Shown: positions 36,322 through 64,000 of the stretch, in pieces
Layout of the letters: each line of letters begins with the position of its first letter
Position numbering within the stretch: the first letter of the stretch is position 1
NCBI GenBank assembly: GCA_026874595.1
Contig: CM049308.1
Span: 53,021,624 to 53,085,623, forward strand
DNA length: 64,000 nt
Origin: Sipunculus nudus
Lineage: Eukaryota; Annelida; Sipuncula; Golfingiida; Sipunculidae
Direction of reading: 5' to 3'
Notes under the pieces: model-generated
Databases searched by the model: none
What the model was told of the DNA's origin: nothing
Seen by the model: only the letters and a program-made list of their open reading frames with translations
Program-made: the position numbers and the translations under genes

Positions 36322-36323
<2 letters not shown>

Positions 36324-37085: not shown

Positions 37086-37089
37086 AGAA

Positions 37090-37251: not shown

Positions 37252-37298
<47 letters not shown>

Positions 37299-37323
37299 TT
37301 CATTATTATTATTATTATTACAT
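37090..37323. repeat. (TAA)n/(TTA)n trinucleotide array
   Basis: Starts as (AATA/TAA) on the plus strand and turns into (TTA) after about 37200, so the two halves can pair as a long hairpin. The minus-strand frame 37136-37420, rich in Ile, is an artefact. Confidence 0.9.

Positions 37324-39452: not shown

Positions 39453-39455
<3 letters not shown>
37324..39455. other. Intergenic, nothing recognised
   Basis: A short block at 38108-38150 (GTAGCCGCCTGCAGAGATGAAACGTCC) resembles 10033-10085. Otherwise nothing was recognised. Confidence 0.4.

Positions 39456-39456
<1 letters not shown>

Positions 39457-39495
<39 letters not shown>
39457..39495. repeat. (TA)n microsatellite
   Basis: About 19 TA units. 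Confidence 0.95.
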
Positions 39496-39498
<3 letters not shown>

Positions 39499-40548: not shown

Positions 40549-40765
40549 CAGGGGCGTAGGTAGGTATCAATGTAGTGAAAGGGATAACGCAGCCCGTTCA
40601 AATGTGATGGATAAGCATTGTTTCAAAGCAAATGGTTTTTGTGTAAAGGACTTCACGGAATCAGTAATTTTGTGTAAGCATGCGCATGTTGATTTGAAAT
40701 GTAACAAAAGTTGATTTTAAAGTTTGAAGTCTGAGACAGGTAGTGCCGGCCGCCCCACAGGGCCC
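40549..40765 (+). repeat. Interspersed repeat, copy without the MITE
   Basis: It carries the pre-insertion arrangement of the repeat at 32366-33060, with TTTTAAAGTTTGAAGTC at about 40715-40732 in place of the 466-bp element. It begins CAGGGGCGTAGGTAGG and ends near GCCGGCCGCCCCACAG. Confidence 0.65.
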
Positions 40766-41799: not shown

Positions 41800-42820
41800 A
41801 CTTGAAGCTTTCCACGCCTGTCTGGGTAACCGAGCGTTCTGCCGCAGCAGTGTAAAATTGTCAAATCGAATGCCGTTGTAGGGAAGCAAGATAAACTGCT
41901 GACTTAGCATTCTTGCCGAAGCTATGCTGTCACTATGTTTAGAGGACTGTTAGGAGTGCAGAATGAGCCCGAGTCCTCCAAGTTTTCAGTATCATGAGAA
42001 TTAATCATTATCATTTATGTGTACAAAAAGAGCCAAACCCGTATGACCTATAGTACAGTGGCTTCCTTATAAACGCGGAGCACATATATAACATCGTCGT
42101 TGACGTCCAATAAAATCGATTTTTTTTTTAAGGGGGGGGGGGGGGGGGAGGCTAGATATGTGTTTTTGAAACGATTTATTTCCCTGCCGTACGAGAATCG
42201 GCATAGAATTATTTGCTTGCCATATCAACGAGAATCGATATAAAAATCTACGTCTGCATAATGGGAAACACGGGAACATCTTTGTGTCGCCTTTTTGGTA
42301 TTAATACCCGCTAAATAGTAAACACGGAGCATGGTAGCTGCGTTAGGTCCGATGATCAAAAAGCGAATAATTTGCAGGAAACATAGGATCAATATAAGGT
42401 TTCCTATCTCGACGACGCCGGGTCCTGATTCAAATGCTCTGATGCCCAATAAACGGCGCACGACAGCATGAATATGCGCAAGGTTTGACATATCAATGGA
42501 CCGGTTTTTAGTGATGTATACATAGGCTCCATAATGTGATTTATACATTGACCCATGAGGAACTGGTTCAATCATGGGTCAACAATGATAAACATTCAAT
42601 TTGCATGTTCAAAATTCATGAGATTACTACAAATAAATAAATTTGTTCAGAACTAGGTGACCAAAAATATCTACTAAGATGCTGAAAACCTTTCATCTGT
42701 ACTGGTAATAATTTAATTAAATTAAATTTTTATTATTTCCACGTTATTCAAGCATACATAAACACTAAGTTACTTTTAACACAAAGCTTATTGTAGCAGA
42801 TCCAGGGATTCCAAAAAATA
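41800..42820 (-). repeat. Interspersed ~1-kb repeat, minus copy (inverted partner 29400-30520)
   Basis: The complement of 29400-30520 with many substitutions. A G run at 42132-42150 sits where the plus copy has a C run (30197-30208). On its own minus strand it keeps a 116-codon frame (42575 down to 42225) that is interrupted in the plus copy. The frame has no recognisable domain, so I do not call it a gene. Confidence 0.8.
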
Positions 42821-44566
42821 TTATCTGCTATCCACTTGTGATGCCATCCGTGCACCTATATGCTGGCAAAACGGACCAGGCAGGTCTCAGGGAAAGCGTT
42901 CCTGTACAAAACGTATACCAGCATATTCTGATAAAATTCTGAACTACGGATCACCTAAAAATCCTCAATAAAAGTTCCATGGTTCTCCAACAGATTTCAT
43001 TTTCAATCATGTAGAAATATGGAATAAAAATTTCTGCTTTCGGTTCAACTTCGAGATGCTATCGATTCTTCTGTCTCCAAATATCCAAACAGAGACAGAC
43101 AAAAAGAAAAACTAACATGGGTAACAACATAAACGGAGGAGGTTTGAGCCTAGCTGTGAACGATTCAAGAGGCTAAACCCCCTGGGAGCTTGGAAACATG
43201 CTGTTCTTGTTATGACACTATGAATACACTTTTAATAATTTATAACAATATGAAATTATGAACCAAAGTGACATAGGCATGAAGTGTATAAGCATGATTA
43301 CTTGTGCTTTGGAATCAATAATCAGTGTAGCTACCTTCGCTGTCATGGCCTGATTTAGAAGGTTGTAGATTGTTCCCGTGAGAACAGGGAAAAGTGCACA
43401 CAATGGGGTTTAAATCATTTGATAATACCCCAAAGGAAGCTAACATTTGCTTATTTCATGAACCTTTCTGTCGATAACCTCTCCTGGCTGATATCATCTC
43501 AAATGCAGGCTCCGTTATTGTTAGTAAATATACTCAGTATAACTGTGTTTGTAAAATTGATCCCTTTCCCTTATGGTCCATGCTAGTATGGATATTATTT
43601 TTTTTCTTTAATCACCTGACAATAGGCGATGATAGTGTGATGTAAGTACAATCGGCTTTTGCCCAAGGCATCCAAAAGGCAATCAGTCTCTATATCAAAA
43701 TATTCCTGAAAACTTTATGCAGCACACTCTCTGCCGAATGGTCCATACCTACTAATCATTCAGCACGGGGTGAATGGCCATCTGATTCACCGGGGTAAAC
43801 TGTCTGGTTATATTTCTTAGAGTGTGGGTTACCAGTAAAATTAAAAATACATAATAATAGACAGAGTTTTGTTGAAATGCATCCGACTGATTTTCCATCT
43901 TCTTCTAAATAAACATTTTAAAATTGAACAATGGCACATATTTGGAGAACCTGAAATTTGAACCGTCCCTGACTTAGCATTTTAATATTCTAATTGATTA
44001 AAGATTAAATATTTAGGTTCCTTATTATATAAATCAATATTTACATGACAGGTATTATCTTGCTCAGCTGACACTGAATCTTTTCCACATTTTCAACAGT
44101 AACCGCCGGGAGAGGTCATTTAGGTTAATGGACATCTTCAGAACTGTCTTTTAACCTGTAATGTGTTTTAACTCAAGCCAAATGATGGAGTTGGTGCCAG
44201 TCTTATGCGACCTCGGGTTGGCTTTAGACCAGTGTAAGGTTTAAGAGTGCACGATCTTAGGCTGTGGTAATGAAAGCTTTTTTATGCAACGAAAGGCCTT
44301 TCCCTGATTGACAGCGCCGAGATGAAAGGCGCCAGCTACCTTGAAATATATCATTCGAAGTGTCATTCTAATGGACTAATGTCATTCCTGTCGAGACAAA
44401 GTACATATCACTCGTCTGTTGTGTTTACCTGTCATGGAGGACACTGAACTCCCAGGCCTAATTAAATGTTTCGTTTCTTTATTTGAAACTGTTAAGCTGC
44501 CAATTATTGATTCTCCGCCATTGCTGGTCCAGAGCGCCAGTAATCACATGAAATAATGGAAAGAGC
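42821..44566. other. Intergenic, possible regulatory stretch 44100-44560
   Basis: No coding sequence was recognised. From about 44100 the base composition becomes more balanced and free of simple repeats. TGATTGACAG at 44305-44314 equals the classic PBX-MEIS/PREP composite site. Enhancer function is an inference. Confidence 0.3.
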
Positions 44567-44772
44567 CTATTTTTTTTCAATTAGCACCTCACATTACTTC
44601 TTAATATTTTTATTATTTTTAGCTGAAACTGTTTGCTATTTGGTTGCATTAGCGGTAGACGCTTGTAATGAAACAGCCTGCTTTTTTCAATAAGCACCTC
44701 ACATCATTTCTGAATATTTTTATTGTTTTTACCTGGAACTGTTTGGTTGCATTAGCGGTAGACGCTAGTAAT
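44567..44772 (+). repeat. 103-bp tandem duplication (two copies)
   Basis: Both copies carry TTTTTTCAAT(T/A)AGCACCTCACAT, then ATATTTTTATT.TTTTTA, and GTTTGGTTGCATTAGCGGTAGACGCT. The last block starts near 44642 and 44741. Only a few differences separate the copies, so the duplication is fairly recent. Confidence 0.9.
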
Positions 44773-44966
44773 TACAAGGTAAAATGGTCAATGTCACGCC
44801 TTTCCGAATATCCAAACAATTTATATTTAAGGAAGTTCATACAATATTCTAGATGGAAAATGCAATTAAAATCTAGGCCTGCATAGTAAATATACTGAAC
44901 TCTCCACCAATAACTTTCTCCAGAATCCGTAGCATCAGATGATGTGTCTGTTTCAAGGGGGAAATA

Positions 44967-44969
<3 letters not shown>

Positions 44970-45027
<58 letters not shown>
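44970..45027. repeat. (TC)n microsatellite
   Basis: About 29 TC units. The Leu-Ser frame across it is an artefact. Confidence 0.95.
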
Positions 45028-45031
<4 letters not shown>

Positions 45032-45354
45032 ACCAGTGTAACAGTTTTAACGATTTTTTAGCCTTGACGTTATTAATTATTTATTATTCAACTAATTATT
45101 ATTATCCCATCTTATTGGCCCTTCAAGAATATATCGAACAAACTTAAGATCATGTTTGATATATCAAAATAGGCAGGAATAGTCAGGTAAACAGGGCAAG
45201 TAGAATACATTAGTTTACATTAGTTGAGAAGAGCAATTTCTTTTATTTTTTACTGATGATATTTTTTAGAATGAGAAAATTTTATTTATATTTTCATATT
45301 TGTTTAAGAATTTGTGGTGGGGTTACCGCCTTCAGTCGAAATTTAATTTCGGTT

Positions 45355-45550
45355 TGAGACAATATGACAAAGCTTTTGCACTCTGCGGATCCCGGGTGTG
45401 TTATAAACTCCACTGCTGGTTCATAACCCCGAGGGACCCCAAAAGGCGCACTCCGGTTCATGCAGAACACTCACTCTGGGGTGGGGGCCGATCTCACGAC
45501 TAATAGGCTGAGATTTGAACTCACGATATCCAGATCATTTGGTTTCGGTT
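45355..45550 (-). mobile_element. SINE, family B
   Basis: On the minus strand: box B GTGAGTTCAAATCTCAGCC, then GTGAGATCGGCCCCCACCCC, AGAGTGAGTGTTCTGC, GGTTATGAACCAGCAGTGGAG, TTATAACACACCCGGG. This matches the body of 14787-15002 block by block. Confidence 0.65.
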
Positions 45551-45907
45551 TGACGATTCCTGTGTTATTCACATCTTCTCTGCACTGTGCAAAACAAACT
45601 AAACTAACATTACATGTATAAATAAATGTTCCTAATTAATATTTTGAGGCACGTGTAGCAAGTGGTAGCGGCGCAGGTGGCACTAAACTTGTTATTTTTA
45701 TTTATTTTTGCTGACTTTCCGAGAATGCCTACTTCGACAATTTGCACATTCCATGAAACGTCACTTGGATTACATTATATCAACAGGTCAATGGACGACG
45801 TGTGTGTCAAAGGTTTAACTACATTCCTGTAGGCGTTTAGGCGTCCCCGCCCCTACCAATCCTTATCACATTTAATAACCTGACACTATACTCTTTAACA
45901 TAGTATG

Positions 45908-45909
<2 letters not shown>
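45551..45909. other. Spacer, nothing recognised
   Basis: No gene or repeat was recognised. Confidence 0.4.

Positions 45910-45957
<48 letters not shown>
45910..45957. repeat. (TA)n microsatellite
   Basis: About 24 TA units. Confidence 0.95.
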
Positions 45958-45960
<3 letters not shown>

Positions 45961-46445
45961 TGTATATACCATGTAATATAAACTCACGTAAAGATTAATA
46001 AATGGATACTTATATAAGTCTGAACACGCAGTTATTTACAGACCATAACCAGCTGAATTAAATGTACTGAAAACCCGATCGGAACAAAATCCGTTATAAG
46101 CTTGTTGTTTCTTGAACTCCAGTCAGTGGCGCCGTCTGTAGCAATTTCACTGAACTAAATGCCGTTCCTCGTGTCATATTATAGTTAATATAAAATCTGC
46201 ATCGTCATATTACCTCCCCTTAAGCTATCCTCATTTTAACCTTCTATACGTCTGGACAATGGGTCATAAAATATTGTTTATTTGTAACAGAAGAAAACAG
46301 TCGACACTTAAGATTACATAAAAGAGGATATAGTTTCAATAGAAGGATATTATTTTGAATGATAACAATGGACCGCAATTTACTCTGCAATCTGAAGTTA
46401 TCTGATAGTGATTCTCCAAGATTTGATCAGTGCACTCTGTAAGAA
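45958..46445. other. Spacer, nothing recognised
   Basis: No gene or repeat was recognised. Confidence 0.4.
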
Positions 46446-46472
46446 GAGAGAGAGAGAGATAGAGAGAGAGAC

Positions 46473-46505
<33 letters not shown>

Positions 46506-46520
46506 GAGAGACAGACACAC

Positions 46521-46579
<59 letters not shown>
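46446..46579. repeat. (GA)n microsatellite with GACA interruptions
   Basis: 134 bases of almost pure purine on the plus strand. GACAGACA blocks in the middle separate it from a clean (GA)n run at about 46527-46579. Such mirror-repeat tracts can form triplex DNA. Frames across it on either strand are artefacts. Confidence 0.95.
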
Positions 46580-46582
<3 letters not shown>

Positions 46583-46659
46583 AGAAGAGGCCAGGAGGTT
46601 TATATCTAGAACGTGGCAGGAAAATCTCAATGTTCCAAATATATAGTTCTTCTGCTGGG

Positions 46660-46960
46660 TTTAATTTTTCTGCCTCCGCCAGGAGTTCACGCGTTCATTC
46701 AAGAGCGTGTGTGTGTCGGTGTGGGTGTTTGTATGTGTATGTACAGCATAACTCACGCAATCTTTGACCGAATCTCAGGGCAATTCGGAAATAGGCCAAG
46801 GAAGAATCGATAAAATTTTAGTGTTGATCCGCATCATGATCCGGGTCCAGGAAGGACCCAGGAATGTCAGCAAAGAAAATTCAGAAATGTACAGTCACAC
46901 ATACACGAATGGACCAGTTAATATGGATCGAATAGGTGATTGCAGACACGGGTTGGGAGA
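46660..46960 (-). repeat. Interspersed (CA)-bearing repeat, copy 3
   Basis: Reverse orientation of 35155-35440. On the plus strand: GTTCACGCGTTCATTC, a (GT) stretch, CATAACTCACGCAATCT, TCAGGGCAATTCGGAAATAGGCCAA, GATCCGGGTCCAGGA, then TCACACATACACGAATGGACC. Confidence 0.65.
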
Positions 46961-47760
46961 GCTTCTGAGTGAATGCAAACACCTTTAGGGGAGCATCCCA
47001 CATTAAAACTCGCGAACATGGCGGAGGCCTGCATTCCTGAGAATGCATATTTCTTGTTTACCCGAGTCCACTGTTTAAGGAACTCGGACTTTGAACTGAG
47101 TATCTTTTACCCGGACTTGTGCAGGGACTCGGACGTAAGGACTGGTCCTCGGACTCGGACAGTATGGACCCGGCTACATCACTGTTATTAAACCATCTGA
47201 TTTTCAAGTTTTCAATACATGGGTCAAAGATTACAAGTCATTAAGAAATTAGAGCTAATCACTAATTAAATTCTATGGAGAATTTACCGCAGCGCCTTTG
47301 TGGTATTGATGAGGACTGTAGTTGGGACCTTCAAGCCCAACGCCTAAACCACTGGATTTCGTTCTACCCAATACTATAGTAACGAATGTTTTTAATCCTT
47401 GATCAATGTCGTATACTCTTTCGTATAAACTAACAAACACGTATGTGAATAAATTATATGATTTAACGCAATTTATGAAATACTGTGGATTCAGAATTGT
47501 TCGTTCGGTCAGTGGACCCTGTGCATTGAGTTAGGCCTATGACATCGTGTTTGCCCGCTGACACCGTCCATGCTAGCAAATATCAATGATAAATAAAACG
47601 CAAAGAAAACGATATGTTGCCCATAAATTAAAAAATACTAATATTGTAAGGAATGATATTCAGTTCCACCTTGGGGTGAGCAAACAAATCAAGATTTAAT
47701 CAGTGTCGTACTTACAAGTGACTGTTGAAAGTGCGTCCGCACTTACACTGGTATATGTGT
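46961..47760. other. Intergenic; GGACTCGGAC-type repeats at 47080-47170
   Basis: CTCGGAC recurs at least four times in about 90 bases (47086-47161), a short imperfect repeat. Otherwise nothing was recognised. Confidence 0.45.
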
Positions 47761-47852
47761 ACGCTCCCGAGGCAGCGGAAATCTTGCGCTTCTGAAGAAG
47801 CAACTGATATAGGAAGTAGTCCTATAGGTAAAGCGCTGTGTAAAGAGCGTAG
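47761..47852 (-). repeat. Short copy of the repeat at 52068-52757, lacking ~580 bp
   Basis: ACGCTCC.GAGGCAGCGGAA...GAAGCAACTGAT is followed directly by ATAGG.AGTAG.CCT.TAGGTAAAGCGCTGTG and AAAGAGCGTA. In the inverted copy at 52068-52757 these two parts are separated by about 580 bases. Confidence 0.75.
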
Positions 47853-50800
47853 TATATGTGGACCTGCTCGCTCTAATTTCATTTTGCTAAAAGTCGTAGG
47901 TAAAGGTCATATTGCCCTGCTAATCATATTAGATTGTTCGTTTAAATAAAATAAACAACCGTGCGGCAGAGTAAATCTAGTTAGCCCCCGGCTGGGTGAT
48001 AAGTCAGGGTCAGCTGGCACAATTATGAGCTTGAGGCCATGCAGTCTACTGTGGCCTGGTTACCGGGTACGTGAGTCGAAAGGGGATACCTTCTGAACGA
48101 ACGACATACCTACACCTGGCGTCGGGACTTGCTCTCGTAAACCTAGTTACACATTCAGACAGACATGTTTACATTTGATTGACACAGGTAGAATTATCCC
48201 TGATAAATCTATTGAGATGTACCCAAACATTTTCAGATAAGTCAGCCGATATTTTTGTCATTGAGGCAGTCGCTTGTACCGGGATTGCGTGAAGTTGACA
48301 TTTGATTTAAAGAGTCAGAAAAGTGTAAACATTCAATGGATTTTTAACAAAAAAGAAAACACTGATTTTTTACTTATTTTTAGGTCTGTTCACATAATAA
48401 TTTTGATACCATGTATGACTAGGAACAATAAATCCACGAAAGTTTTAACCCAACGAATAGTGTTTCAGGTCAAACCACGATATTTTAAACCCACGGTATT
48501 TTCTGAATCCACAGTATTAAATGCTACCCGAGTCTCTAGGTATTAAGAATGTATAGAATTAACTCGTGCAACCGAGGCGTTGCTATTAAATCACCACGGA
48601 GCCCACCTCCGTGACCAAAACACGTTGGTCCCATCAGGAGACCTAAAAGTGTGTTAGTCTGTAGAAGTTGAAGGCTTTCTCTCACGTAACACATCCAGTT
48701 AGGGAAGGCTGGCGCTAATGGACGACTTTATCTGACCTCGTCGGGTCCTTTAGCGGCTCAGGCCTGCAACAGCACGAAAGTGAACCAAAGGTCATTCCTG
48801 ATGGATACTTGGGTTTTAATTGGTACGCGCTACAGGCCTAGATTCCCGGCAGTTCGTCTTTTGATGTTACGTTACAGCCGCTCCTATGAATTGATTAAAA
48901 CGATTGACAAATATAATCAATTAATGAATATTTGTTTGTTCTTTAAAATTTGCTTCGAGTGACAATGTTTTAAACTGTTATCAAAACGTTCACACCATAT
49001 GTTTTATCATTGCAAAAGTATATTTATAAGCTGTATCCACTGTTTATGTTTTATATATACGTCTGATATCAGCCGTTGTTTCGGATATTTTTTTTCTGTA
49101 GAAAGGTCTGTGATATGTTAAAAACAACAATTTCTGTGAATAAAGACACATTCAAATGTAAAATTCAATGAGCATATGTTCTATAGGGACAATTATAGCA
49201 TATAATGTATGTTTTTACATACGCATACATACATACAAAACAGTAAGACACAAGGGAATTACTGTGAATGAGCCTTCCCCATTAGGGAGAGGATGCTTAC
49301 AGTGGGTATAAATGAGCTCATTTCTTTATTGACATTTGAAGGGGTAGATGTCATTTCTTCCCGTCCTGGTTTGAGCGAGAATTCCAATACGGCCATTCTG
49401 TAAACAGAATGCTTACAGGAGACCTGATTGATGAAATAGTATTTTTTTTATTTACCTTGCAAAACATTTCAGACTCGACGTAATCAGCATATTTTCATAT
49501 TCATTATTGCTCAGTATTTTCTCGACGTTGAGTACTTCTCTAGAAAGCATGCTCTCTTTGAAACTTATCATTGAAAGCATGCTGGTACTTCATGTTGAAG
49601 GTCAAGGTCATACAGTAGTTTACTACTGGAGCTGGAGACGTTGGGGATGTGGGAAAGGGGACGGGGTAGCCGTAAATACACGACTCAGTGGGCATTATTT
49701 TTATTGGGCTTAGTAAGCCAAACCCGAGTTGTGATAAAAGCCATACGGGGGAATGTATTGCAACGGTCATGTATCCTGTTGCACATACATCGTGGCAAAC
49801 ATTCAATATTCTTAGGCTACGAATGATGAATTTACTCAAAAGAATACATGTGAACTCCCAAACCAAACTGAAAATCCGTCTCAATTGTAGCGCCTCATTT
49901 CATGTGTCGCCTTCAAATTTGATCCCGCCTGGTAATCCGTGATCGCTGGGCGATTCCAGGCCTCGTGTTGGCTTATTTTATGCATATGGATAATCACTGA
50001 CTCATTAATCGAGCTGATTTGTAATATAATATATATTTAGCGCCTCTGGTGAGCGCTAAGGATAGTACATTAGCTGGCTGTGGTTGTCAGTTGCACAGGA
50101 CGGCGTTATCTACACGTTGACGTTAATGGAACATTAATCCTTCAAGGTCATCATTAGCTGTTATAGAAGTCTGTTTAGTGTCTATAAATAAGAATGATCA
50201 GAATCAAGATAATATGGTCGTCATATTTGATAAAATATACATTCAATAACCAATAATTTATATATCTTTATTAAGATGGTAATATATATTTTTAAATATG
50301 CGGTTTGCAGAGAAGCATAAATATATAAAATGATAAACACACTTAACAGTTAAAGGTAACGGTATTTATAAATAAAGATTGCAATAAAGAAACAAAATTT
50401 CCATAAACTGTCCACGACGACCATGTTGACAAAATAAAGAAATTCGGGGTAATTTGTACGAAACATTAGGCCCTTATGCGATCTTCCTACTAGCCGCCGC
50501 CATGTTTTAATTTATACATTCAAATACCAATTAACGTCGCCTTTGCCTACTATGCGCCGGCTAAAAATGAGGATATGATGATTTCATATCGTGGCATTGA
50601 ATGCAAACGCTCCTTGTGCTTTATGTACTTCCATGAACTTGCCCTGTGTAATGTTTTAAAATTTGTTTGTTTACTTGATTTATAACGAGTGAACTTAACT
50701 GACGTCACGCGTCCCCGATATTAAATTAACCGACATATTATAGCACTTCATTTATATAGATGTACTGCTGGTATTAGATGAACATTTTAATACATAACAC

Positions 50801-52067
50801 GTTTCCTCCTCAATCCATCTCGCTTGAAAAGAATCTTGCATACTTTATATTATCACGGTCGGCGGTCCTATGGGTTTCACTACCTGACGGCGGTAACGAT
50901 TCCGATTACGTGCGAACTGAATGGATAATCGTAACGTAAAAAACATTAATGGGGAGCTTCGCGGACCCAGTAATCTAACCACTTAACCTGCCAATCAAAA
51001 TGCTTTCAGTGCGACTCGGTGAAGATAAAAGCGAACAAGACCAATTGGGTTGATGAGACGTCTTTATTCCGTTTACTCGGGATGCTACGCGCGTGTGGAT
51101 GCATACTTATAGATTTCTCGCCTGAATTAAGCGTAAGAAGGTAGTTCCCCTTGGCCTGATGCCCGGACAAGTTGGAGGGTCTTAATGCCGGTAAACGAAG
51201 AAGTTGAGTCTGATGAACATTATCTTTCGCAGACACCCGGGGTAAATTCTTGCTGACAACCCAAGGGGATGACATGTTTGATTTATCAACGGGTAATATC
51301 TATAATCAATTCGTTCTTCACAATAACATCCATATCAGAGCCGCCTCGGCGTCTGAGGACATGATGGACATCACAATTGGGAAAATTCCCACCACACTGA
51401 TATCAGATGGAACCTAATTTGTGAAAGAATACTTTGGTTTCTTTTTCTCCATAATGATCACTCAATTGAAAATCATCGACTGACAATGACTTTTTTATCA
51501 TCCAGCTGTATTCATTCGTCAATAGCATGATGTTGCTCAATCGTCTATTTAATGCACACCCGTGCAGCACCAATTCCCATTTGAATTTATACCTATTTTC
51601 CTTTCATTTACGATTCTGGAAGAAACCCCTTAATAGTTTTTTGGTTAAGGGATAGGGAATTTGGATATCAATTATCATCAAGGTTACAATTCAGGTTAAT
51701 TCACTGGGAATAAAATCACCCTATAGTCCATACATAACGTTTCTTATTTATAGACTCATTATAATCATGACTTATAACTACAATATTTTCTTGTCTGTAT
51801 TTTTGTTATAGACAGGGTTGTTGTGACAGTGTTGTAGATACAGAGCCATAGATCTCTGGCTACATTTATCTAGCGGGACGGAGCGAACACAAAATGCAAC
51901 GCATTACTTATTGTGACCTCGCATGTATTGGGCCTGTCCCAGTGAGTCGACCATTGGTTACACTCGCTTTTATTTCAGCCATGCCATGGGTCGGAAATTA
52001 ATATAAAATTGATAATCTGGACTACATCAGGTTACTACAACAATAGGAGACTCAATGGAGCAGATAG
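47853..52067. other. Intergenic, nothing recognised
   Basis: About 4.2 kb without a supportable gene. Overlapping frames at 49507-49942 on both strands have no motif. TCAAGGTCA at 50142-50150 is the consensus for ERR/NR5-type nuclear receptors, but a single 9-mer is weak evidence. Confidence 0.4.
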
Positions 52068-52757
52068 GTTGTACGCTCTTTACACAGCGCTTTACCTAAA
52101 GGGCTACTACCTATATAGTAAGGCGCTGTTTGTTATGACCTCGTATCCTGAATTTCTACACCAGAGGGGAGCACTGTATTTTTGTCCAATCATATGAGAC
52201 CTTGTGCTGGAAGACAAAGCCAAGCGAGGAATACACGGAGCCAATCATGTTTATTTCGTTTTGAGTGACAGCTCATCGCCCCGCGTAACCGTCTGAACAG
52301 GCCACAGGCTCAGAGAGAATTGCCCCTGACGTGGTTTGCACATAGGGCACATAGGATGCTCGGCCGGTGAGCTGTTATTCAAACGAAACGTAACAACAAA
52401 GGCTGCGTGCACACCTCGCTGGCTTGTTTCAGTTCTGTAGACAACAGATACATGGCTACGCTAACACAGTCATAATGTCATAATCGAATCGGTCGATGAT
52501 GCGAGAATGCAGAGGGAGTAATTTTAATTCGACCGGAAACTCATCAAGCGGCGCTTGAAGCGCAGCAATGGGCAGAGCCAGGATGCCTGTCGAGTGTTTG
52601 TTTATTGGCATCTGATTGGCTGTTTGTCACATCAGACGCACGTTTATTTCAGCGGACAACGAACCGCCATCTGGTGTCTAAATATATCATAAATGGTCAA
52701 AGCTGGCAGCGTGAAAATCAGTTGCTTCTTTAGAAGCGCAAGATTTCCGCTGCCTCA
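52068..52757 (+). repeat. Repeat containing a ~580-bp insert
   Basis: The outer parts (52068-52118 and 52708-52757) are the inverse of 47761-47852. The insert (about 52119-52707) holds an internal inverted pair, TTTCGTTTTGAGTGACAGCTC at about 52256 and GAGCTGTTATTCAAACGAAACG at about 52369, and a segment related to 4300-4440. No ORF was recognised. It may be a palindromic transposon relic, but no clean terminal repeats or target duplication were found. Confidence 0.6.
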
Positions 52758-53036
52758 GGAGCGTAATAGGTTGATGATTAAAATAATCAATAATATTTCA
52801 AAAAGGTATTTCACAATGACATACACTCTCCTTCGTATACTTTGAAATAGACATTTTTAACAAGAGGATTTACCTAATCATTAACCAGTTTTATGCAGGG
52901 TAGGTTTTTCCATTGCAAATATGGATGTGTCACACTATTGGGCCAGTCTAAGTACAGGGGCGTAGCCAGGATTGAGGGAAGGGAGTGGGCCGAAATATTT
53001 AGCTTAGGCAATTGTTGTAAATATAAATATGTATAA

Positions 53037-53067
<31 letters not shown>

Positions 53068-53631
53068 ACAATTCCATACAAAAATAATTTTTTAATTCCA
53101 ATTTGAAATATCAGTTGTACAAGATGAATAAATAAAAAAGAAACATATCTGCAGGATCAAATATATCCCAAATCTGCGGATACCAGCGACAGGAATTTCA
53201 TGATTGTGTTTAGAAAATGTAACCATTATAAGACTAAGTGAAATTCCGGGAGTACTGCACAGGCATACTGGATGCGACCAAGGGACGGAAGAGGGGGGGG
53301 GGGGGGGTTATAATAATCTCGAGATATCAGTGTGTGGTGAAAATCTACCGCAAGCACTCTGTCTCGCCAGATGTTACCCTCTGCCTCACTGGTGTCATTT
53401 ATCGAGTCTTTCGCATGATTCCCTGGATATAGCATAAACAGTTACGGCGCCGAGACGTGGCCACCTGTCAATCACGCGATGGTCTTAATATCCGTTCAAA
53501 GCTTGAACCCGATCCAGAGTGCACCTCTGTTTTACACAACTCGCTTTTATTGATTCTTTCCTACAATAGCTAAATATTCTTGTTTTTATTGATATTTTAT
53601 CTCGACCTTACCAGTACCTGACAGGGGAGGA
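52758..53631. other. Intergenic; repeat end at 52957, (TA)n, poly-G
   Basis: CAGGGGCGTAGCCAGGATTG at about 52957 is the style of a DNA-transposon end, with no partner found. A short (TA)n lies at 53038-53067 and a poly-G run at about 53291-53307. No gene was recognised. Confidence 0.4.
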
Positions 53632-53905
53632 TTTAGGGGAGCGCAGGTCCAGCCCCCCCCCCCCCCCCCCCCACTTTTCACCCAAAAATGGAAATGGGGT
53701 ATGGAAATGTAAAATAAGGGCTTAATAGCCTAAAACAGAGCCGGAGTTCGAATTATGATGCTTTTAAAACAACTCCATATATCGCCATTACAGCTAAATG
53801 AAAAAGATAGTTTCTACACTTCGGGAGGGGGTTGTCATTCCGATACTCTCCCCTCTGAAGACCCCCCCCCCCCCCCATTTTACTACATTCCTGCATCCGC
53901 TCCTG
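53632..53905. mobile_element. Short MITE with CAGGGG ends, 274 bp
   Basis: The left end is CAGGGGAGGATTTAGGGG and the right end is CCTGCATCCGCTCCTG. Two C runs (about 53653-53672 and 53862-53875) lie inside. It is related to 5231-5352 and 24949-25098 by its ends. Target duplication is unclear. Confidence 0.55.
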
Positions 53906-54544
53906 CGTCAGTACGTAACGTACTATGATTAAGTTCTGTTGCCAATTCCTTTGTTCTTACAATTCATTTTCAATTTTATCTGGAATTATTACCCGTACAT
54001 AAGTTGATGAACATATGCTAATTTCTAGTTAACACCATGAACAAAATTTAAATTGCAAAAAAGAAGGTCAGTCATAAGTGAAGGAACGCACGTTCCGGTA
54101 TATTTAAATATTCTTCAATGTTCAACTTATGGAACATTTCAAATAGTCATCTCGTCTGTTAGCAAGGAGGTCCATTTAAAATGTCCTAATCGGACCCACG
54201 CTCCAGGAAATACATTAGAAAACGTTGCTCCTGGAATCATCTGTTAACCCTCTATGTACACAATGCCTGGATCAATTATGATATCAAATATAAAGTTTTG
54301 CAAAAAACGGAAGACATATTATCTTAAGTGCATTCATGATTCACCAATGAGCGGGTTCTCTACAAATCTAAATATTATTTGCCCGCTGTATATAAACAGC
54401 ACAAAGTGCTCCAGCACTGCTAACGAAACCAGTTGTGGACTTATGTTATAAGATAACGTTGGTGTCAACGGTCATGTCACCAAGTTTATTCATGACGAAT
54501 AGGAAACGCCATGAGAGGTCTCTTGAGAGTCGCGCAATAACGGG
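53906..54544. other. Intergenic, nothing recognised
   Basis: Short frames at 54053-54247 and 54254-54451 have no motif. Confidence 0.4.
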
Positions 54545-54776
54545 ACTTGGACAGTCGAGGGGTAAAGCGCTCGGCTCTCTCCGCTGGCGACCCGGGTTCG
54601 ATCCCTGGCGTGGCTAAGAGAGAGGGATGTTGTGGCTCTCCAAGGCCGGTTGTTTTCTCCCGGTTCTCCTGTGTCCGCCAGCATCAACGATTATCAAACG
54701 CCATCGTACGAGCCATGGAGGGTGCCTTGATTAGTTATTTTAACTATTTATACAATCCATACAAAATAAATAATTT
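54545..54776 (+). mobile_element. SINE, family A, best copy
   Basis: A tRNA-like head runs from CTTGGACAGTCGAGGGGTAAAGCGC (box A region) to CGACCCGGGTTCGATCCC (box B, about 54590-54605). Then come CCAAGGCCGGTTGTTTTCTC, CCGGTTCTCC, a variable stretch, and the tail TTATACAATCCATACAAAATAAATAA. It matches 15003-15235. A pol III transcript copied by a LINE is the expected mechanism. Overlapping frames here encode SINE sequence only. Confidence 0.8.
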
Positions 54777-57641
54777 TTTAAAGAAAGTAAATATGTTTCC
54801 ATGTGAAAACACAAAAATATCATTCCGGTATTTGGCAACCATATCCATTAGCAAGACCAGATATATACAGTGCATGCTTTTAAGCGTCAAACAAACAATT
54901 TTTTTCACATGTTCGATTATTCTTGTTAACCTGTATATCTGCGACAGGACATAGGAAATAGTCGGCGAGGAATCAGTGTGAAGGAATTCTAAAACATGTA
55001 CCAAGGTAAAAACCTCATTTTCTTATCTCGAGAATGAGAAACTGGGAAGACAAAATGGAATTTTTCTACCGTGACGTCAGAGTACATTAACAGAGACTTA
55101 ATCACCGAGACAATAATGGGAAACAAGAATTTTGTATTGAAAATATTGTGCTTCCTTCCTCGTTTTTACCATATTCCAATAAGAATATCTATATTTATTA
55201 CCAGACAATTTCCAAATACAGGCAACGACAATATCTTTGCGGCAACCTTGACGTCAATCCACGCAAAAAGATAATTACTTGTTAATATAATGGCTAGACT
55301 TGTTTTACACAAAAAGGGTTTTCCTGGTGTGATGTTAGTTATTTTCCTCTTTAGATAATAAGAGTACGTAGCTTTTTCCTGTATACCCGTAAATCATTCT
55401 ACGGCAGTCCATTTAATACTAGCAAATACCCATTAAAGTCAATATACTCAACAGGAAACGGTGAGTGGCAAATATTTGTACTCTTAACTAGGTTATTATT
55501 AATTACTGAATGGACGAATACGTTGCGCAAAGGTAAGAGTCCGTTTTATTTCTTTCGGTTAAGAACCAGTTATTACATTGGTAAATGATGCGAAAATGTT
55601 TGTATCCGGAAATACAGATATATCTGAATTTATGCTTGTGACGATACAGAGAAAGTTTTCATGAAACATGTTTTTTTTTTCTTGATCATGCCTTAACAGT
55701 CACCGTGCTCTTAAAATAAATGAAGCTATTTCTCTGCTGTCTCAGTCAATGACGACAACTTGATTTAGTGGCTGAAAATGTGCCCGGAGTAAAACAGGAA
55801 GTCTATTTTACGGCAGTAAAATGTTACTGGCATTCAAGGAAAAGGCAATAAAGGGCAGGGAGGTTACTTGAACTATCACGCACGGTCACCGTAACAAAGA
55901 CCCTGGGAGAACATAAAATTCATTTTACTGTTGTACTGACACTAATACAAGGCGGGTTAAGGCAACTGACTATTATTCCCAGTGAGTATGGGAAAGGTCA
56001 GGGATTTTATAAGGCCAAAAAAAAAAAACGTGGGTTGCTGTTTTGCTCTGCCCTCCGTCACGCAGTTATAAATTTAAACTGTTTATTACTTGGTTGGTTA
56101 GTTGTTTTGTCTGCTAAAAAGTTTACTCAAAAGTTATGAACAATCTTCAATGAAATTGTGTTGATGGTTTGGGCAACACCCTTGGATTAACCAGTTGCAT
56201 TCGGGAGGTAATCCGGATCATTATCACGTTTTCCTTTAATATATTACCTACGTTTGCAAGATAGAACATTTGTCTAACCCGAACAAGGGCGATTATTATT
56301 AACTGGTATTAGTTATTAGGGATTAGCCTTTGTTTTGGCATGCAGAGCTGTCCTGTGATGCGACCATTGAGTTGATAGACCATGACGCACTTTATTCTGG
56401 CCTGCATTAATATTTCCCTGATTTGGCTTAGCACTAACCAAAGATAGTACAGGAACCCAGCGGAGGTATATAATTATGCGGTTCCAGGCTGCTTTCTAGT
56501 TCAGACTGCACTGCTGGCAGTTAAAAAGGAAAACCCAACATGTCCGTATACCGTATATGTTCCAGTGTCTCCACTTTGATAAGCGAGGCGGCCGGGGTCC
56601 TTTCTTCTACGGCTGGCAGAAATAAAGCAAATATGAAATGGTGAGTGTATAGTAAAATCCCTTAAGCAGCTTGAACATACCAGCAGCAGTGACTGGGTTT
56701 TAAGTCTTTTCACTTCGTGGATTTTATTTGAATTATGCTGTAGTATACTGGTTAAACAGAAATAGAATGCTTGACGGTTGAAGTACAGCGTAATATATAC
56801 AGATGCATATAAATATATGTCACAATAAATTTGGGAAATTAGAAAATACATGTAATTCCTGATTCACTCAGTGACTTCATTTATTTAATGAAACTCTCAG
56901 AGAATACAAGTATTTCCTGAAATTAAGGGGTAATTTTTACCAAGATTTACTTAATTTTGCAGTGAATAAAAGTAGAAGATCCACAGGTCGAAAGAATGAC
57001 TAGTTATGTCATCATACCATAGCTTAATTACCAAAGGCTTTTTAGGGAAGGCAAGAGTTGTAACCAGCTTTTGTGATAACACTGATAACTTCAAAACCAT
57101 AATTTTCCTTCCATCAGAATCCAAAATATAAACACTTGGTCAGGAAAATACTAATTATACCAATCGCTGAATACTTCTTCCTCCTCGATGATGTAAATTA
57201 GCAGCTGCCTATAGTCCAGAGGAGCGAGAATTTAAGGGGCTTTAAGCGCTATCATTTGTTTGCAAAGCAGCTTATTTCAATGAAGAATTTAACCTATTAT
57301 TGTATGTATTATGTTGAAAATTATAATAATACAACGAAGCATCCTATTCTTGAAACATCTCCAAGTGTAATCAGAATATTAAGAGGTATGTTGATGGTGA
57401 TGCGTGTGCACAGCTACCTTGATCATGTTATCATGAATTCTAACGGTATACAGGTAAATAAATATGCGACAAAGCAGATTATTATCAATGTTTTTCATCT
57501 CAGTAAATGTGTGAAATTTCTGGCCCTGTATTTTAGGAGATACACGTATTTCTTAGAATATTCAGTAAATATGTGAAGTTACTGAATGAATTACCAATTA
57601 AATGTATATACTGAAATTTTCAGGAAATACGCTTATTTATG

Positions 57642-57645
<4 letters not shown>
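54777..57645. other. Intergenic, nothing recognised
   Basis: Frames at 56501-56851 (-) and 57256-57576 (+) exceed 100 codons but have no recognisable motif and biased AT-rich composition. A poly-A run lies at 56021-56030. Confidence 0.4.

Positions 57646-57708
<63 letters not shown>
57646..57708. repeat. (TA)n microsatellite
   Basis: About 31 TA units. Confidence 0.95.
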
Positions 57709-57712
<4 letters not shown>

Positions 57713-58679
57713 CGCCTTATGACGGTTAACAGAGCCGGACCATGGATGATTCATGTTGTCCCATTGTAGAATCATGCACTCATTCTAATATTTTATTTGG
57801 AGAGTTTTATTGTCATTGTACACCCCTCTGTTTTGTCCAGATTTAAATTTCGAACTTTTATTTAATTTTCTGCTGCCCCCAAAATGTGATATAAGCATAA
57901 TGTTATGCTTTAAGCTGAAGGCATTTCTTTCCGATATTTAAATTTATGACCCAAAAGGGGCGATATTGTTTTATTATCACTTAAGGTGTAGTTCAGAAAC
58001 GAGAGAATCGATCTTAAGTGAACCCACAATAATTTCAGTATGAGAGTTTTAAAATGCTATCCAATCGGTTATATGTTTTCCTAGCTTCAGTTGTTTTCAG
58101 CTTTCGACTTAAACTTCAAGTTATCCACTTGAAACCCCCACGCCATTGTTAGACCAAAAAGACTTCACCAGACACTCAACAGGGACATTTACTTAAGAAA
58201 GCATAAAGTTGTCACGCCCAGTGTCACAAAGCACACTGTCACGCCCATGGAGATGTTTGGCATGCGCAAGAAACTAATTAAACACGATTGAGGGCAACAC
58301 AAAAGCCGCGTGACCAGATTTTTAACCAGGATTACAAAGAGGACCTTTTATATTGATCATCATTAATTAACACTGATCATGAGATTTAACATTGTTTTAG
58401 CACAGAAAGTAAACCACGCCCTGTCATAATACCCTTCAGTTTCGAGATCGTGACGTACTTAAATACAAATATGTAAACGACAATTAGGTTGAAAAGAAGG
58501 AATTGCATCTTTTCAAAGAAGACATACGTTTGACGAAGGCGCATCACCGCGAGACAGAAATAACCTGTGAAGCTGGAATCACTGAAAAATCGATTAAGCT
58601 GAATTTCTGTAAGAAGACATGTTTGAAAAGAGCCTAGGGCTTATCTGTAACAAGTCGATCTCGCCCGCCGCATTCACTT
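57709..58679. other. Upstream flank of the globin gene, nothing recognised
   Basis: No exon or bounded repeat was recognised. A 5' untranslated exon of the globin could lie here or further upstream but leaves no readable trace. Confidence 0.4.
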
Positions 58680-58768
58680 TTGGAACCAGTCTTCGTGCCA
58701 CCTAAAGGCAGGCAGACGTAACCCCACATCGCTAACAGGGGTGCTCTATCCAACTGTATGAGGGAATC
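58680..58768 (-). mobile_element. Decayed tRNA-derived sequence
   Basis: On the minus strand ACAGTTGGATAGAGCACCCC looks like a tRNA D-arm and box A. It is followed by a possible ACCCC/GGGGT stem with an oversized loop, and GGTTACGTC stands where box B should be. The arms are incomplete and the loop is wrong, so it is not a working tRNA. It is probably the head of a third SINE type or an old tRNA pseudogene. Confidence 0.35.
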
Positions 58769-59412
58769 CAGGAGACAATTTGAAATCAATGTTGAAACTG
58801 AGACAGTCTGTTGAGACTTGCAGGTTTATTTGACTTACACAGTTGTGTTAAGCAGGGGAGCTGAAACTAACGGTCGCACTGGATGTATCTGATACATCTA
58901 AAACGCTGGCATACAAGGTTGGTATATAAACTATAATACAAGATTAAACACTACCTACAACATTCACCACTCCGGGTCTTTGAGTCATGCAGCGGCGGGA
59001 TATGACGTTAATTTATGACGATGCAACCCTGAAGAACTAGTTCCAGCTACAGGTGTAGCAGCCTGGACGCGACGGCAAATAGTGTTGCGCCGATCTTTGA
59101 CAAAACAGCCTACTGAAGCCAGAGAAACTTGATTGGAGACAGCTATAATCCTAATTTGGATAACTATCCCACGTGCTGTTGCTGCGCTTTACGGTAGGGT
59201 ACATTCGCTTCATTTATCAGTTGCTAACGGACGGTTTCGAAAGCCATCACCAGACTTTACATTGGCATCGTTTGCATGAAAAGAAAGGATTGGAAGTCAA
59301 GGGAAGTGGTTTGGACATACCGCATAGGAAGTATTACAAGTTAATCACCGACATATCATAGGTGGAATATTGTAGAGGAGCCACGCAGCTTTCAAATGCT
59401 TTCCAGGAAGGT

Positions 59413-59446
59413 TTAACTAGACGTATTGATTTTGCCGTCTAGTTAA
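59413..59446. other. Perfect 11-bp inverted repeat upstream of globin
   Basis: TTAACTAGACG (59413-59423) and CGTCTAGTTAA (59436-59446) flank a 12-base loop, about 150 bases before the globin start codon. In RNA this would fold into a stable stem if it is part of the 5' leader. In DNA it could be a palindromic binding site. Transcription start is not known. Confidence 0.7.
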
Positions 59447-59596
59447 CTTCATAGTAACGTACCTTTAGGTTGGGTTTTCTGTCACTCGTCGTCGTGCGTG
59501 AATAGGATGGTGAAAAGTCTCTCCTGAACTGGACTTTTTATATTTGTGAACTAGAACGTACAGTAGTGCAATTCCCTTAGTATAAATTGATTACAA

Positions 59597-59838
59597 ATGG
59601 GAGCCCAAAATTCGAAACGGGAACACCCAAAGAAAGGGCGCAAGAGAAGCGGAAGTGACTATAGAGACATAATGCGCAGAATCAGCGCAATGTCGGAAGG
59701 CGTGGACACGCTTCATGTGCCACCGGAACTGATTGCACAAAGACCGGAGCTGACACCATACCAGATAGAGGTTCTTCTACGGTCATGGAAGACCCTTCAG
59801 GAGGATGTCACGCGGGTTGGAGTCGTTATGTTTATGCA
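59597..59838 (+). CDS. Globin X-like protein, first coding exon (myristoylated)
   Basis: Membrane-anchored heme protein of the globin X branch (close to neuroglobin). The 80 whole codons begin MGAQNSK: Gly2 and Ser6 fit the N-myristoylation rule, so the product is expected at the inner face of membranes. There is no Cys for palmitoylation near it. A basic linker (KKGRKR, residues 12-17) and a ~50-residue extension typical of globin X precede helix A, LTPYQIEVLLRSWKTL (52-67), with the conserved Trp64. Helix B, VTRVGVVMF, ends with Phe79, which falls at B10 when aligned to neuroglobin. The reading frame is cut after two bases of codon 81 at CA|GTAGGT, exactly the ancestral B12.2 intron. The start is fixed by an in-frame TGA at 59588-59590; +4 is G. 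Heme-binding helices E and F lie beyond the window. Other myristoylated neuroglobin-like globins remain possible. Confidence 0.85.
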
Positions 59839-59921
59839 GTAGGTATCTCCATTTTATACTATATGAAATTATAATATTAATTTATAACATGAATCCATGA
59901 TTATATATATAAAAATATATA

Positions 59922-60061
59922 TAATAAAAATCTCGCCTAACGACCAACCTTTAGCGACTACCTCAGAATAACACGGTCCCAATTCTTTAAGTTCTTTATG
60001 TAAGACCTCGCTTAGGTGCAACAACTTTATCGAGGTCCGGTTGATCGTAATTTCGAGGTTT

Positions 60062-60067
<6 letters not shown>
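59922..60067. mobile_element. MITE-like repeat with CTCG..TAACGACC ends
   Basis: The left end, AAAAATCTCGCCTAACGACC, and the right end, GATCGTAATTTCGAGGTTTTACTATA, are loose inverses. The interior repeats GCGACTACCTC and GGTC motifs. Sequence of this style (blocks of TAACGACCACCT) is widespread in invertebrate DNA transposon relics, as recalled and not searched. It lies only ~80 bases inside the globin intron. Confidence 0.5.

Positions 60068-60127
<60 letters not shown>
60066..60127. repeat. (TA)n microsatellite in the globin intron
   Basis: About 31 TA units directly at the right end of the MITE-like repeat. Confidence 0.95.
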
Positions 60128-60137
<10 letters not shown>

Positions 60138-62447
60138 TACGTTTTCGTTTGCTTTTGTATGTTTCTCAGAATATAAGTAATACTGTTTTAATCGAAAGTA
60201 AAAAATAATTTTTCCTTTAAAACTAAAGGTAACAGTTCTGTTAATTCATCGTGTTCGCCAAAAATCATGATGTCTTAAATGAAAAAAAAAGAATCGCTTT
60301 TCATCCTGGAAAACTGATCATGTGAAATGTTTAAATGATTAACTCTGGGTTCATTGTCAACAAGCAGTGTGAAAAACGATACTGTTTTTCTCGCTCATGC
60401 AAAAACAATGGATTTTACCTGCAAATATTTTATAAGTATTCTTTGTTTGATCATTTAGTTTTCATGAGCTGCCCAAAGTTTTTCTAACTATATATTTTCT
60501 TTCTGATGTAAATTTCATGACTGTGCCATGAAACCTGTCTGGTTGACAAGATCATCTTGGTGATAGTGGAATAAAATGAATCAGGGTTGATACAGGCCGG
60601 ACTCCAAGGAAATAATCGAGGCGTTTTCATGAAAGTATTCATATTTCAAGTTTTCCTAACTTTATAAGAAAAATGCACCAGAGAAATAAGTATGAAAGAG
60701 TGGATATATGAAATTTTATAGTGGAAAAAATATTATTTTATTTATTTGTTTTCTTTTTGTACCGTTAGTTGCTTAACAAGATGTAGGCCTAAACTGGCGC
60801 TGGATTTGTAAAGCCTGTCTAAAAAAAACCTACTCCTCTCTATAAAAGACTGAACATTATGTATTAAGTAAAACATTAGGAAAAGGAATATTTGTATATG
60901 CACATGTAGCAGGTGAAAGTTTTCTCAAATATTTAAGAGAAAATCAGGTATTTCATTGAGATGATTGCAAATGACTATAAGAGGATCCGACCTGCTCATA
61001 ACCCGGTTGGGAGTTGGGAGCAATGTATTTTCCTTTTCAGCGGGCATTTGTTTATTTCAAGGACCATTTTCCATCATGATATCCAACAAACCTTTCATTA
61101 AAAAATAACCATCTTCGCATCAGTTGGGCCAACCTTGGCGTCATCTAGTTCGTTCTGCTCCCGAGTTTTTTTTCTTTATTGGTAAGGCCAGCAAGCCAAA
61201 AATGTTTATGCCAAGGCGAAAAAGAGGACATTGCGTAATAAACTTTTAAAAAAAGTAATTTATATGATTTTACTGTAGACAATTTTAAACAAAACATAAG
61301 AATCCCGTCCACAGTTGGCAGCATCATTCCGCCATCCGCATGAAATGGACATACCAGTAAACGGTGATGACGTCATTACAAGACGTTACGGTAGGAGCAG
61401 CATAACTTGAGAACTAATTATAAAGAATTGGCGAGCACCTTATTTTGATTCTTACATTCGCCTAGCATCACGTCATATCCAGGTTGGGAAAATTATGGTA
61501 ACAAGCTAGTAACGCTGTTAATTAGGGATAAATACACAGTCAACTAGGCCGTAAAAGTGAATAATATTTTGATTAACAGGTATGCCACAGACAATTACCT
61601 ACGCACTCTGCCTTCGGGGCAAGCACTGTGTGGCAAATGTGCTGTATAAAAAATATTCGCAAAACAACAGGCGGAGAGGGCCTGAGAACGTATTAGAGTT
61701 AAACGTGAAGGAAATTACTTTGCATTACGATGGTCCCTGTCTCCTAAAATTATGACACAACCAAATCGCGTTTCGAAGTTAATTACATTTATAAGAGGAG
61801 ACAAACAGGTTTAAAAGATAGTTTGTAAAATTCTAAGAAAATTTCTGCTTTGATAGGCGAAGTGGAATGATATGTAATGGCAAGGACAGAAAATGGAGAA
61901 ATGAATTAGACATTTTGTTTGTGTGGCCGCCCGGTCAATCATCAAGCAACTGTAATAAGGTAGAACAGTTTTCGAAGCTTCTCACAGGAGTACAAAATTA
62001 AATTGATTTAAAAAATTGGTGTTTTTTCATGGTTTGATTTCCAGCAAAGTCGGATTCAATCAAGTCTTTCAAATGAACCATTTTATTCGTTTTACAGTAA
62101 GCCTCTTTATCTATTAATCGATTCATAGTCCAGGGTACACTACACGTGCAGTTGACTCCTAGTTCTGCAGTCGTGAATGGGAACGTGCAACTACAATTCT
62201 CGATAAATGCAGTTCAATTATTTTAAAGTTTAAAAAAATCAGGTTTTTATTTTAACGTGTAGCTGACCCCAAACGGCGCAGTTAGAAAATCCATGTTTAA
62301 ATAATTTATAATTATCGACCAAGCGTATCAAAGCTAAACACCATATATTTTACATTCGTATAAGATTGTAAGTATTCTGTTACATTTCTTTGATAATTAT
62401 ATATAGTTTTTTTTACAAATATTCATAAAATTAATAATAAATAAAAA

Positions 62448-62496
62448 CACATATATATATAAAGATATATTTATATACTCATTATATATATATATA
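62448..62496. repeat. Imperfect (TA)n stretch
   Basis: Interrupted AT dinucleotides in the globin intron. Confidence 0.8.
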
Positions 62497-64000
62497 AACA
62501 AACTCGATTTCAGCCTTGTTTCTACAGGTAATGGTTCAACCTTCAAATGGAACGTGTGTTTTCCTCTCAGCGGGGCTTACATATCTAGTGGCTTGACTTC
62601 AGTTGCGCGATTCTAAGATTTCCTTAAAATATAATCTTTCGTTGTCATGCATGAAGAAATGTGTTTTCTTTTTTTGTTCACTTTGTGAACTTATGCGCTG
62701 GCGCAGCGTATCCTGTCCACCGTCCACCGTCTATTATCAAATATCTGTATAAGCCGCTGCAGTTTATTCATGAAACTTTGCAGACTTTTTTTATCATGTG
62801 ATGAATATGCAAAAGAAAGCTCTTGGTGCAGCATCCTACGTTAATATACTTTCTGCGGGCTGAAATGATCATTTCCTCTTTTTCCAATTAGATTATTAAG
62901 TACTAACATTTTGGCTGCATATCAAAGTTAATAGTTTCGTAGAGGAAGGGCAATAAAATGAGTATAAATTAAGTTAAATTATTTTCAAAATCGTGTCTTT
63001 ACGGAAGTTCAAATTTTGTCGATCGTAAAATTTGACAATTTGTTGTTTCCATATGTGATGTTATGCCTGTTACAAAATATCCCAGGAACTGCTGCAGCCT
63101 ACAACACCAAATTTCACAGGAATGTTGGGGCATGTGACTGCTATGTGATTTTGATCTGCAGCTGGCGCCACCTGTGTTGACCTACTTTCTGCAGAATGTA
63201 ATGCTCCTTTTCTGCTTTTTACCGAGATATGTCATAAGTATTAATATTTTTTTGGTTTCGTATCAATATATGAATATATTGAAAAAATATTGTTTCTGTA
63301 TTTATGTATATAATGGGAAAATACTGTCTCATGGCAGTCCGTGTCTATCCGTGCAATAATTCGTTAATCTAACCCCGTGACCACAGACACACAACTATAT
63401 CGTATGTTCACTCATGCATGCTTCTTTTCGTTTGAGTAGCTTTCAGCCATGTCTATGCATTTAATCGTCCTTTAAAGAAATTATATAACAAAATTATATA
63501 TAAACATGATACTGATAATGCCTTTATTTAATATGTCAAACTCTTTTTTTCATTTTTGTGCGGCAAGCAAATGGAAATATTATGGACAACCTATTTACAT
63601 ATAATGATATTAAAGCCTGTCATTTTAAGGTATGTGTGTACTAAAGATGTAAGTATTTATAAGGCTCTTTTGTGGATACGGGCTCTGCAAGTCTGCACAA
63701 TTTGTGAATGGAAGACAAATTCTGTTTGACAGGCTGACGGCCATAACAGAGTTACTGTCACTGACTGAATCCAAAATAAAACAAGCTATTCTGATTTGTC
63801 GGGCAATGTACCATTACTTGCATACATGCCGGTCTCGAATTGCCGTAAAACTTGTCTACAGTTCCATGGTAACTTTAGTTTCGGTTGTCATGGTGACTTA
63901 GCTATAATCTTACAGCAAGTGAGACAGGATTGTCCCGATAACAGATAGTACCGAAGCACAAAATACGAAATCATGATTCTCCCTCTGGATTAAATTACAA

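Follow-up and report, generated by a model that had tools for sequence, protein, structure and literature searches.

We identified a globin first exon (exon a) near the 3' end of an otherwise empty-looking window of the Sipunculus nudus genome (the window being the whole stretch of DNA analysed, 64 kb in length, C3:53021624-53085623 of the 1.43-Gb genome). Together with two similar exons outside the window (exons c and b) it probably forms a set of alternative first exons that serve one globin X-like gene, in which each first exon would supply its own N-terminal tail and helices A and B to one shared heme core. This reading is based on sequence comparisons within the assembly, on profile and structure database searches, and on published intron positions and targeting data for related globins.

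A globin first exon in the window

The following features were located in the window (window coordinates unless marked C3):

59588..59590, + strand: in-frame TGA, three codons 5' of the ATG at 59597
59597..59838 (C3:53081220-53081461), + strand: first coding exon a, 80 codons plus 2 bases; N-terminal tail and helices A and B
59597..59647, + strand: residues 1-17, MGAQNSKREHPKKGRKR; predicted N-myristoylation site (G2, S6, K7), zero Cys, 7 K/R
59672..59674, + strand: another in-frame ATG, at codon 26; position -3 is A
59750..59836, + strand: helices A and B, LTPYQIEVLLRSWKTLQEDVTRVGVVMFM; Trp A12, Gly B6, Phe B10, placed by the A-B profile and the PDB alignment
59839..59844, + strand: GTAGGT, splice donor in phase 2 (following the second base of codon 81), corresponding to B12.2 of globins
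59839..64000, + strand: putative start of the intron, 4,162 of the 72,120 bases before the shared exon 2
1..59596, + strand: putative intron of isoform c, if exon c is used

The open frame runs from the ATG at 59597 (protein start MGAQNSK...) through 80 codons plus CA to the GTAGGT donor, and the TGA at 59588..59590 makes this ATG the first in-frame start. Trp64, Gly75, Phe79, and the donor correspond to A12, B6, B10, and B12.2 in an ungapped register against myoglobin and neuroglobin, the helix names being those that we take to follow from the usual globin numbering. The exon features that the original prediction had read from the DNA (MG..NS at the N-terminus, Trp64, Phe79 at B10, a phase-2 donor at codon 81) are confirmed by the sequence and by this register, and its remark that no Cys lies nearby holds for all 80 residues of the exon. 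B12.2 is a conserved intron position of globins as defined in PMC3206486.

For helices A and B a profile was built from nine globin A-B segments. The 29-mer of exon a scored 15.6 bits and ranked first among the 23,593 stop-free six-frame 29-mers of the window (runner-up 1.1), a score that was matched by 1 of 200,000 shuffles and that falls within the range of the nine real globin segments under leave-one-out (9.9-30.3). The exon has a G+C content of 51%, reached by 0.9% of window stretches of equal length. Its scores with whole-globin HMMs were weak (E 8, third among 3553 ORFs; in another run E 1.1, rank 1), and motif regular expressions for helices C-H returned noise in the part of their output inspected. 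In the protein search that had been proposed as a check, neither Pfam (no match) nor PDB returned a globin with the exon alone, designed TIM barrels standing on top of the PDB matches to the A-B fragment (E 2e-4). All five matches of a whole-genome search with exon a lay at globin loci, on the correct strand. A whole-genome search with a paralogue first exon as query likewise placed all of its 11 matches at globin loci, on the correct strand. Positions 59597-59838 of the window are thus almost certainly a real globin first exon; the profile rank, the genome matches, and the exons found downstream all bear out the predicted globin gene start.

Two signals at the ends of the exon are less than ideal. 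The ATG at 59597 has C at -3, which counts against the model, and the in-frame ATG at codon 26 is a possible leaky start that would yield a form without the tail and without Gly2. The donor of exon a is mediocre, at the 89th percentile among 7063 GTs according to a generic position weight matrix; by the same matrix the neighbouring GTs at 59655 and 59843 score slightly above it, the latter sitting behind a TAG.

The description of the rest of the window as gene-empty holds as far as tested, with no tested ORF above the Pfam cut-off and no match in the tRNA and Rfam searches. Of the 41 ORFs with a length of 90 aa or more, 29 were put through the Pfam test, along with one of 60 aa, and none exceeded the cut-off; three ORFs gave four sub-threshold matches (E 0.03-0.09), and the 12 ORFs omitted were mostly repeats or overlapping frames. 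The window also contains a minisatellite at 1954-2549 (33 copies of 18 bases, the minus strand of which is open in one frame for 189 codons), an imperfect tandem duplication of about 1.25 kb at 15571-17955 (74-89% identical in pieces), and two copies of a repeat at 15021-15105 and 54579-54663 that are 72% identical and contain GGGTTCGATCC. We take this word to resemble a tRNA B-box, and the repeat is probably a tRNA-derived SINE.

Exons 2 and 3 and the joined protein

A Pfam globin search of the genome gave 14 matches, one of which lies 72 kb 3' of exon a on the same strand. It led to two exons:

C3:53153582-53153807, + strand: exon 2, acceptor ttacag, donor gtgagt following GAC, B12.2 to G7.0
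C3:53158188-53158319, + strand: exon 3, G7.0 to the stop codon, unbroken

Exon a is separated from exon 2 by 72,120 bases and exon 2 from exon 3 by 4,380 bases, all three being on the + strand. The protein joined from exons a, 2, and 3 has 199 aa. Searched against PDB, for which isoform a was the only joined protein used, it aligned from residue 49 through helix H (Caudina Hb, E 9.9e-13) with a gap-free a/2 junction, and, when it is aligned with Caudina Hb and neuroglobin, HisE7, HisF8, and PheCD1 are all in place. PF00042 is matched by the joined proteins of all three isoforms with 72.1-72.7 bits against a cut-off of 22 (E 4.5e-20 to 6.9e-20), but as this match begins at residue 74-79 (residue 79 in isoform a) it rests on exons 2 and 3; exon a is tested within the joined protein by the PDB alignment.

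Downstream globin exons, named beforehand as a check on the prediction, were therefore found on the same strand and encode helices B-H, but they lie 72 kb away and outside the window; within the window, positions 59839-64000 yielded no globin-like exon downstream of exon a. An intron of 72 kb for exon a, or of 138 kb for exon c, is long and counts against the model. In this genome, however, members of the subfamily usually have long first introns: two paralogues have introns of about 29 and 93 kb, and in a third they measure 57 and 93 kb. Exon a quite likely serves as one of the alternative first exons and is joined to exon 2 across this distance.

Further first exons ahead of the same core

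Whole-genome searches, together with scripts run on the fetched region, revealed two further first exons at the locus:

C3:53015588-53015814, + strand: first exon c, starting MGIRHSRHSKKHD..., 5.8 kb before the window and 138 kb 5' of exon 2; donor GTAAGT
C3:53126052-53126281, + strand: first exon b, starting MGNIRSIESPEAP..., 27 kb 5' of exon 2

Exon a lies between them, 72 kb from exon 2. Exons c, a, and b each have an MG start, Ser6, Trp A12, Gly B6, Phe B10, a phase-2 donor at B12.2, and zero Cys, and the c/2, a/2, and b/2 joins are all in frame. Within C3:53011701-53283600 (271,900 bases, no N) tblastn identified a single exon 2 and a single exon 3 besides the three first exons, so that several first exons of the same phase precede one shared exon; the shared exons 2 and 3 are the only globin exons found for the first exons to join. 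Taken alone, the match to exon c is weak (E 0.27 with exon a and E 0.06 with the paralogue first exon as query), and weak first-exon matches were accepted on place, strand, and phase.

Suggested assignment to the globin X-like family

The gene has introns at B12.2 and G7.0 only, the E10.2 and H10.0 introns being absent (exons 2 and 3 run unbroken through these positions). Vertebrate globin X (GbX) resembles it in the Gly2 acylation site, the long N-terminal extension, and the B12.2 and G7.0 introns (PMC3176823, PMC3206486), yet fish and frog GbX also carry E10.2 and H10.0 (PMC3206486) and the present gene lacks both as well as Cys3: each of the three first exons has Gly2 and lacks Cys3. A strict globin X identity is therefore unsupported. 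Globin X-like (GbXL; clade II, bilaterians; PMC7457136, PMC7771090) shares with it the restriction to B12.2 and G7.0, which applies to nearly all arthropod GbXL (PMC7457136), as well as an extension with a myristoylation site and the heme residues. Differences are that most arthropod GbXL carry a motif for both myristoylation and palmitoylation (PMC7457136), of which the first exons match the myristoylation pattern while lacking the palmitoylation Cys, and that three first exons precede one core. The presence of only B12.2 and G7.0 points to globin X-like rather than globin X, an assignment by intron positions that is suggestive, since arthropod GbX mostly have E10.2 but a few, two of them named, have lost it (PMC7457136). 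Among the best 60 of 99 PDB matches no chain was named GbX or GbXL.

N-terminal tail, acylation, and location

Residues 2-17 of exon a comprise 7 K/R and 1 D/E, and the net charge over residues 2-20 is +2 in exon c, +6 in exon a, and +3 in exon b. The starts of all three exons agree with what we take to be the PROSITE-type pattern of an N-myristoylation site (MG, small residue at position 6), as do 14 of the 86 ATGGG sites in the window. Gly2 of the isoforms is probably myristoylated, to judge from this pattern. That a myristate and basic residues together tether the protein, as had been proposed, is plausible, the myristate itself being a prediction; G2 and S6 are kept in three of three first exons. 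In the Platynereis paper the combination of myristoylation and a basic motif is regarded as a likely anchor (PMC7771090). The use of myristate without palmitate, which had been contrasted with vertebrate globin X, is not new: for most arthropod GbX the prediction is myristate alone (PMC7457136), and GLB-26 of C. elegans carries a myristate, while the portion of its report drawn on here describes no palmitate (PMC3520999). In zebrafish GbX both Gly2 and Cys3 are required for proper membrane targeting, and a C3S mutant that keeps Gly2 is nuclear with no membrane signal (PMC3176823), which calls for caution regarding the Cys-free tail of exon a.

Residues 11-17 of exon a (PKKGRKR, with KKGR at residues 12-15) can also be read as a nuclear signal, in which case the plasma membrane would not be the place of isoform a, which would instead be found inside the nucleus or at its membrane. 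Src/MARCKS type tails, the make-up of which is like that of exon a's, bind the plasma membrane, and this argues against a nuclear address. The nuclear zebrafish C3S mutant speaks for it, and so does GLB-26, which resembles exon a in its Gly2 myristoylation (in exon a predicted) and in a basic PKK run at about residue 11-12: its predicted PKKNKPE signal at position 12 accompanies a location mainly at the nuclear lamina of cultured cells, although the protein was seen at the cell membrane too (PMC3520999). A nuclear place for isoform a is accordingly a possibility to be taken seriously, if a somewhat improbable one, and the chances that the three tails give different locations appear about even.

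In the arrangement that we propose, with three first exons serving one core, each first exon would have its own promoter and would be spliced to the common exons 2 and 3, giving globins of 194 (c), 199 (a), and 195 aa (b) with one heme core. N-myristoyltransferase would acylate Gly2, the differing basic tails would set the strength of the hold or the membrane concerned (plasma or nuclear), and the heme placed at the membrane would perform redox, NO, or ROS chemistry instead of oxygen carriage.

Paralogues and other globin loci

A whole-genome search with exon 2 retrieved four members of the subfamily, all on C3, the other three being 56-67% identical to exon 2 of this locus. The paralogue at 88 Mb has two first exons, at C3:87875020 (L039, MYSQRSEG...) and C3:87911116 (L033, MAEPDKSAKK...), neither of which starts with MG, and one exon 2 was found (C3:87968196), the DNA between having been covered by the search; this paralogue is perhaps a soluble counterpart of the acylated gene. 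So far, the paralogue at 19.6 Mb (MGANHAKERV...) and that at 30.0 Mb (MGLCFSRHRK..., with Cys4) have yielded one first exon each. By search, a further pair of first exons, both with Cys3, lies at C3:69982362 (L041, MGCV...) and C3:70069635 (L040, MGCGSS...) before a Pfam globin match at C3:70082603, which contains one TAA. Taken alone the paralogue first exons are weak matches (E 1.3-9.8 with the paralogue first exon as query), and their counts are lower bounds, as the searches score the best candidates only.

Seven of the 14 Pfam globin matches in the genome are on C3, spread across 78 Mb. Two adjoining intronless globin ORFs at C6:66396574-66398895 (L001, L005) start with MGCGSS and MGCGHSS and thus have the myristate-palmitate type of start that the gene in the window lacks. 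A further match (L002) was judged by eye to be a mollusc-like hemoglobin. Another, C136:38607-38924 (L003), falls in a 422-aa open frame that by eye resembles a flavohemoglobin, and its 82-kb contig is probably a bacterial contaminant or symbiont in the assembly.

Conservation of the first exons

In pairwise comparison the first exons agree at 11-16 of 31 residues (35-52% identity). Differences at codon positions 1, 2, and 3 number 16, 5, and 19 for a/b, 15, 8, and 22 for a/c, and 16, 9, and 21 for b/c, and this sparing of second positions indicates coding constraint on the first exons. At the mean stop frequency of the region, the chance of three open 77-codon frames is about 1e-6. The open frames together with the spared second positions suggest that the first exons are most likely kept by selection. 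When the DNA flanks of exons a and b were compared, with only 96 bases before exon a covered, the sole match comprised the exon end and a few intron bases. A tree of the 31-residue A-B segments from nine sequences grouped a and b (0.53), placed c beside the pair from 88 Mb (0.82), and united the 70-Mb pair (0.997), the segments being too short for dating the duplications.

Exons a and c might instead be relics of tandem copies without exons 2 and 3, exon b alone being used. Exon b lies at the shortest distance from exon 2, and its donor scores above that of exon a (2.39 against -0.04 by the generic donor matrix), and tandem globin copies do occur in the genome in the form of the two intronless ORFs on C6. 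A dead exon so diverged would, however, be expected to be broken, whereas even at this low identity each of the three exons retains an open frame, an intact start and a phase-2 donor, and the substitutions avoid second codon positions while leaving G2, S6, Trp A12, Gly B6, and Phe B10 in place; we therefore consider relics unlikely. Still less probable is an ordinary globin gene with a single promoter, its tail a mere tether and its other first exons rare noise without a role, since many animal globins of these clades are indeed predicted to be acylated (PMC7771090, PMC7457136) but more than one member of the subfamily has several first exons (three in the present gene, two in the paralogue at 88 Mb) and those at this locus are under coding constraint.

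We lean towards the interpretation that this GbX-like branch has repeatedly duplicated its first exon, so that one heme core would be combined with interchangeable modules of lipid tail plus helices A-B in a KChIP-like targeting switch, with three MG exons at the present locus and two non-MG exons in a paralogue.

Known parallels and implications

KChIP genes similarly use alternative 5' exons to attach cytoplasmic, myristoylated, palmitoylated, or transmembrane tails to a common core (PMC3973911). They encode an unrelated calcium-sensor fold, and in the globin gene the swapped exon includes part of the fold itself (helices A-B). For GLB-26, a nematode globin, no alternative first exons are mentioned in the excerpted text of PMC3520999; the term "first exon" is absent from the main text of PMC7457136 and PMC7771090, and none of the literature matches listed (open-licence papers) concerned alternative first exons in globins. 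Acylated globins are already known, while a globin gene in which each of several first exons supplies a tail together with helices A-B would be new, not having been found in the open-licence literature searched.

If the proposed arrangement is true, the same heme core with three natural tails would constitute a ready experiment on why membrane attachment is so common among animal globins, one in which the chemistry is held constant and the address varied. A further suggestion from the arrangement is that the B12.2 intron, a conserved position in animal globins, can serve as a swap point. Use of exon c would place the entire window within one gene and would explain why 64 kb look empty. Globin gene models with a single first exon may miss isoforms.
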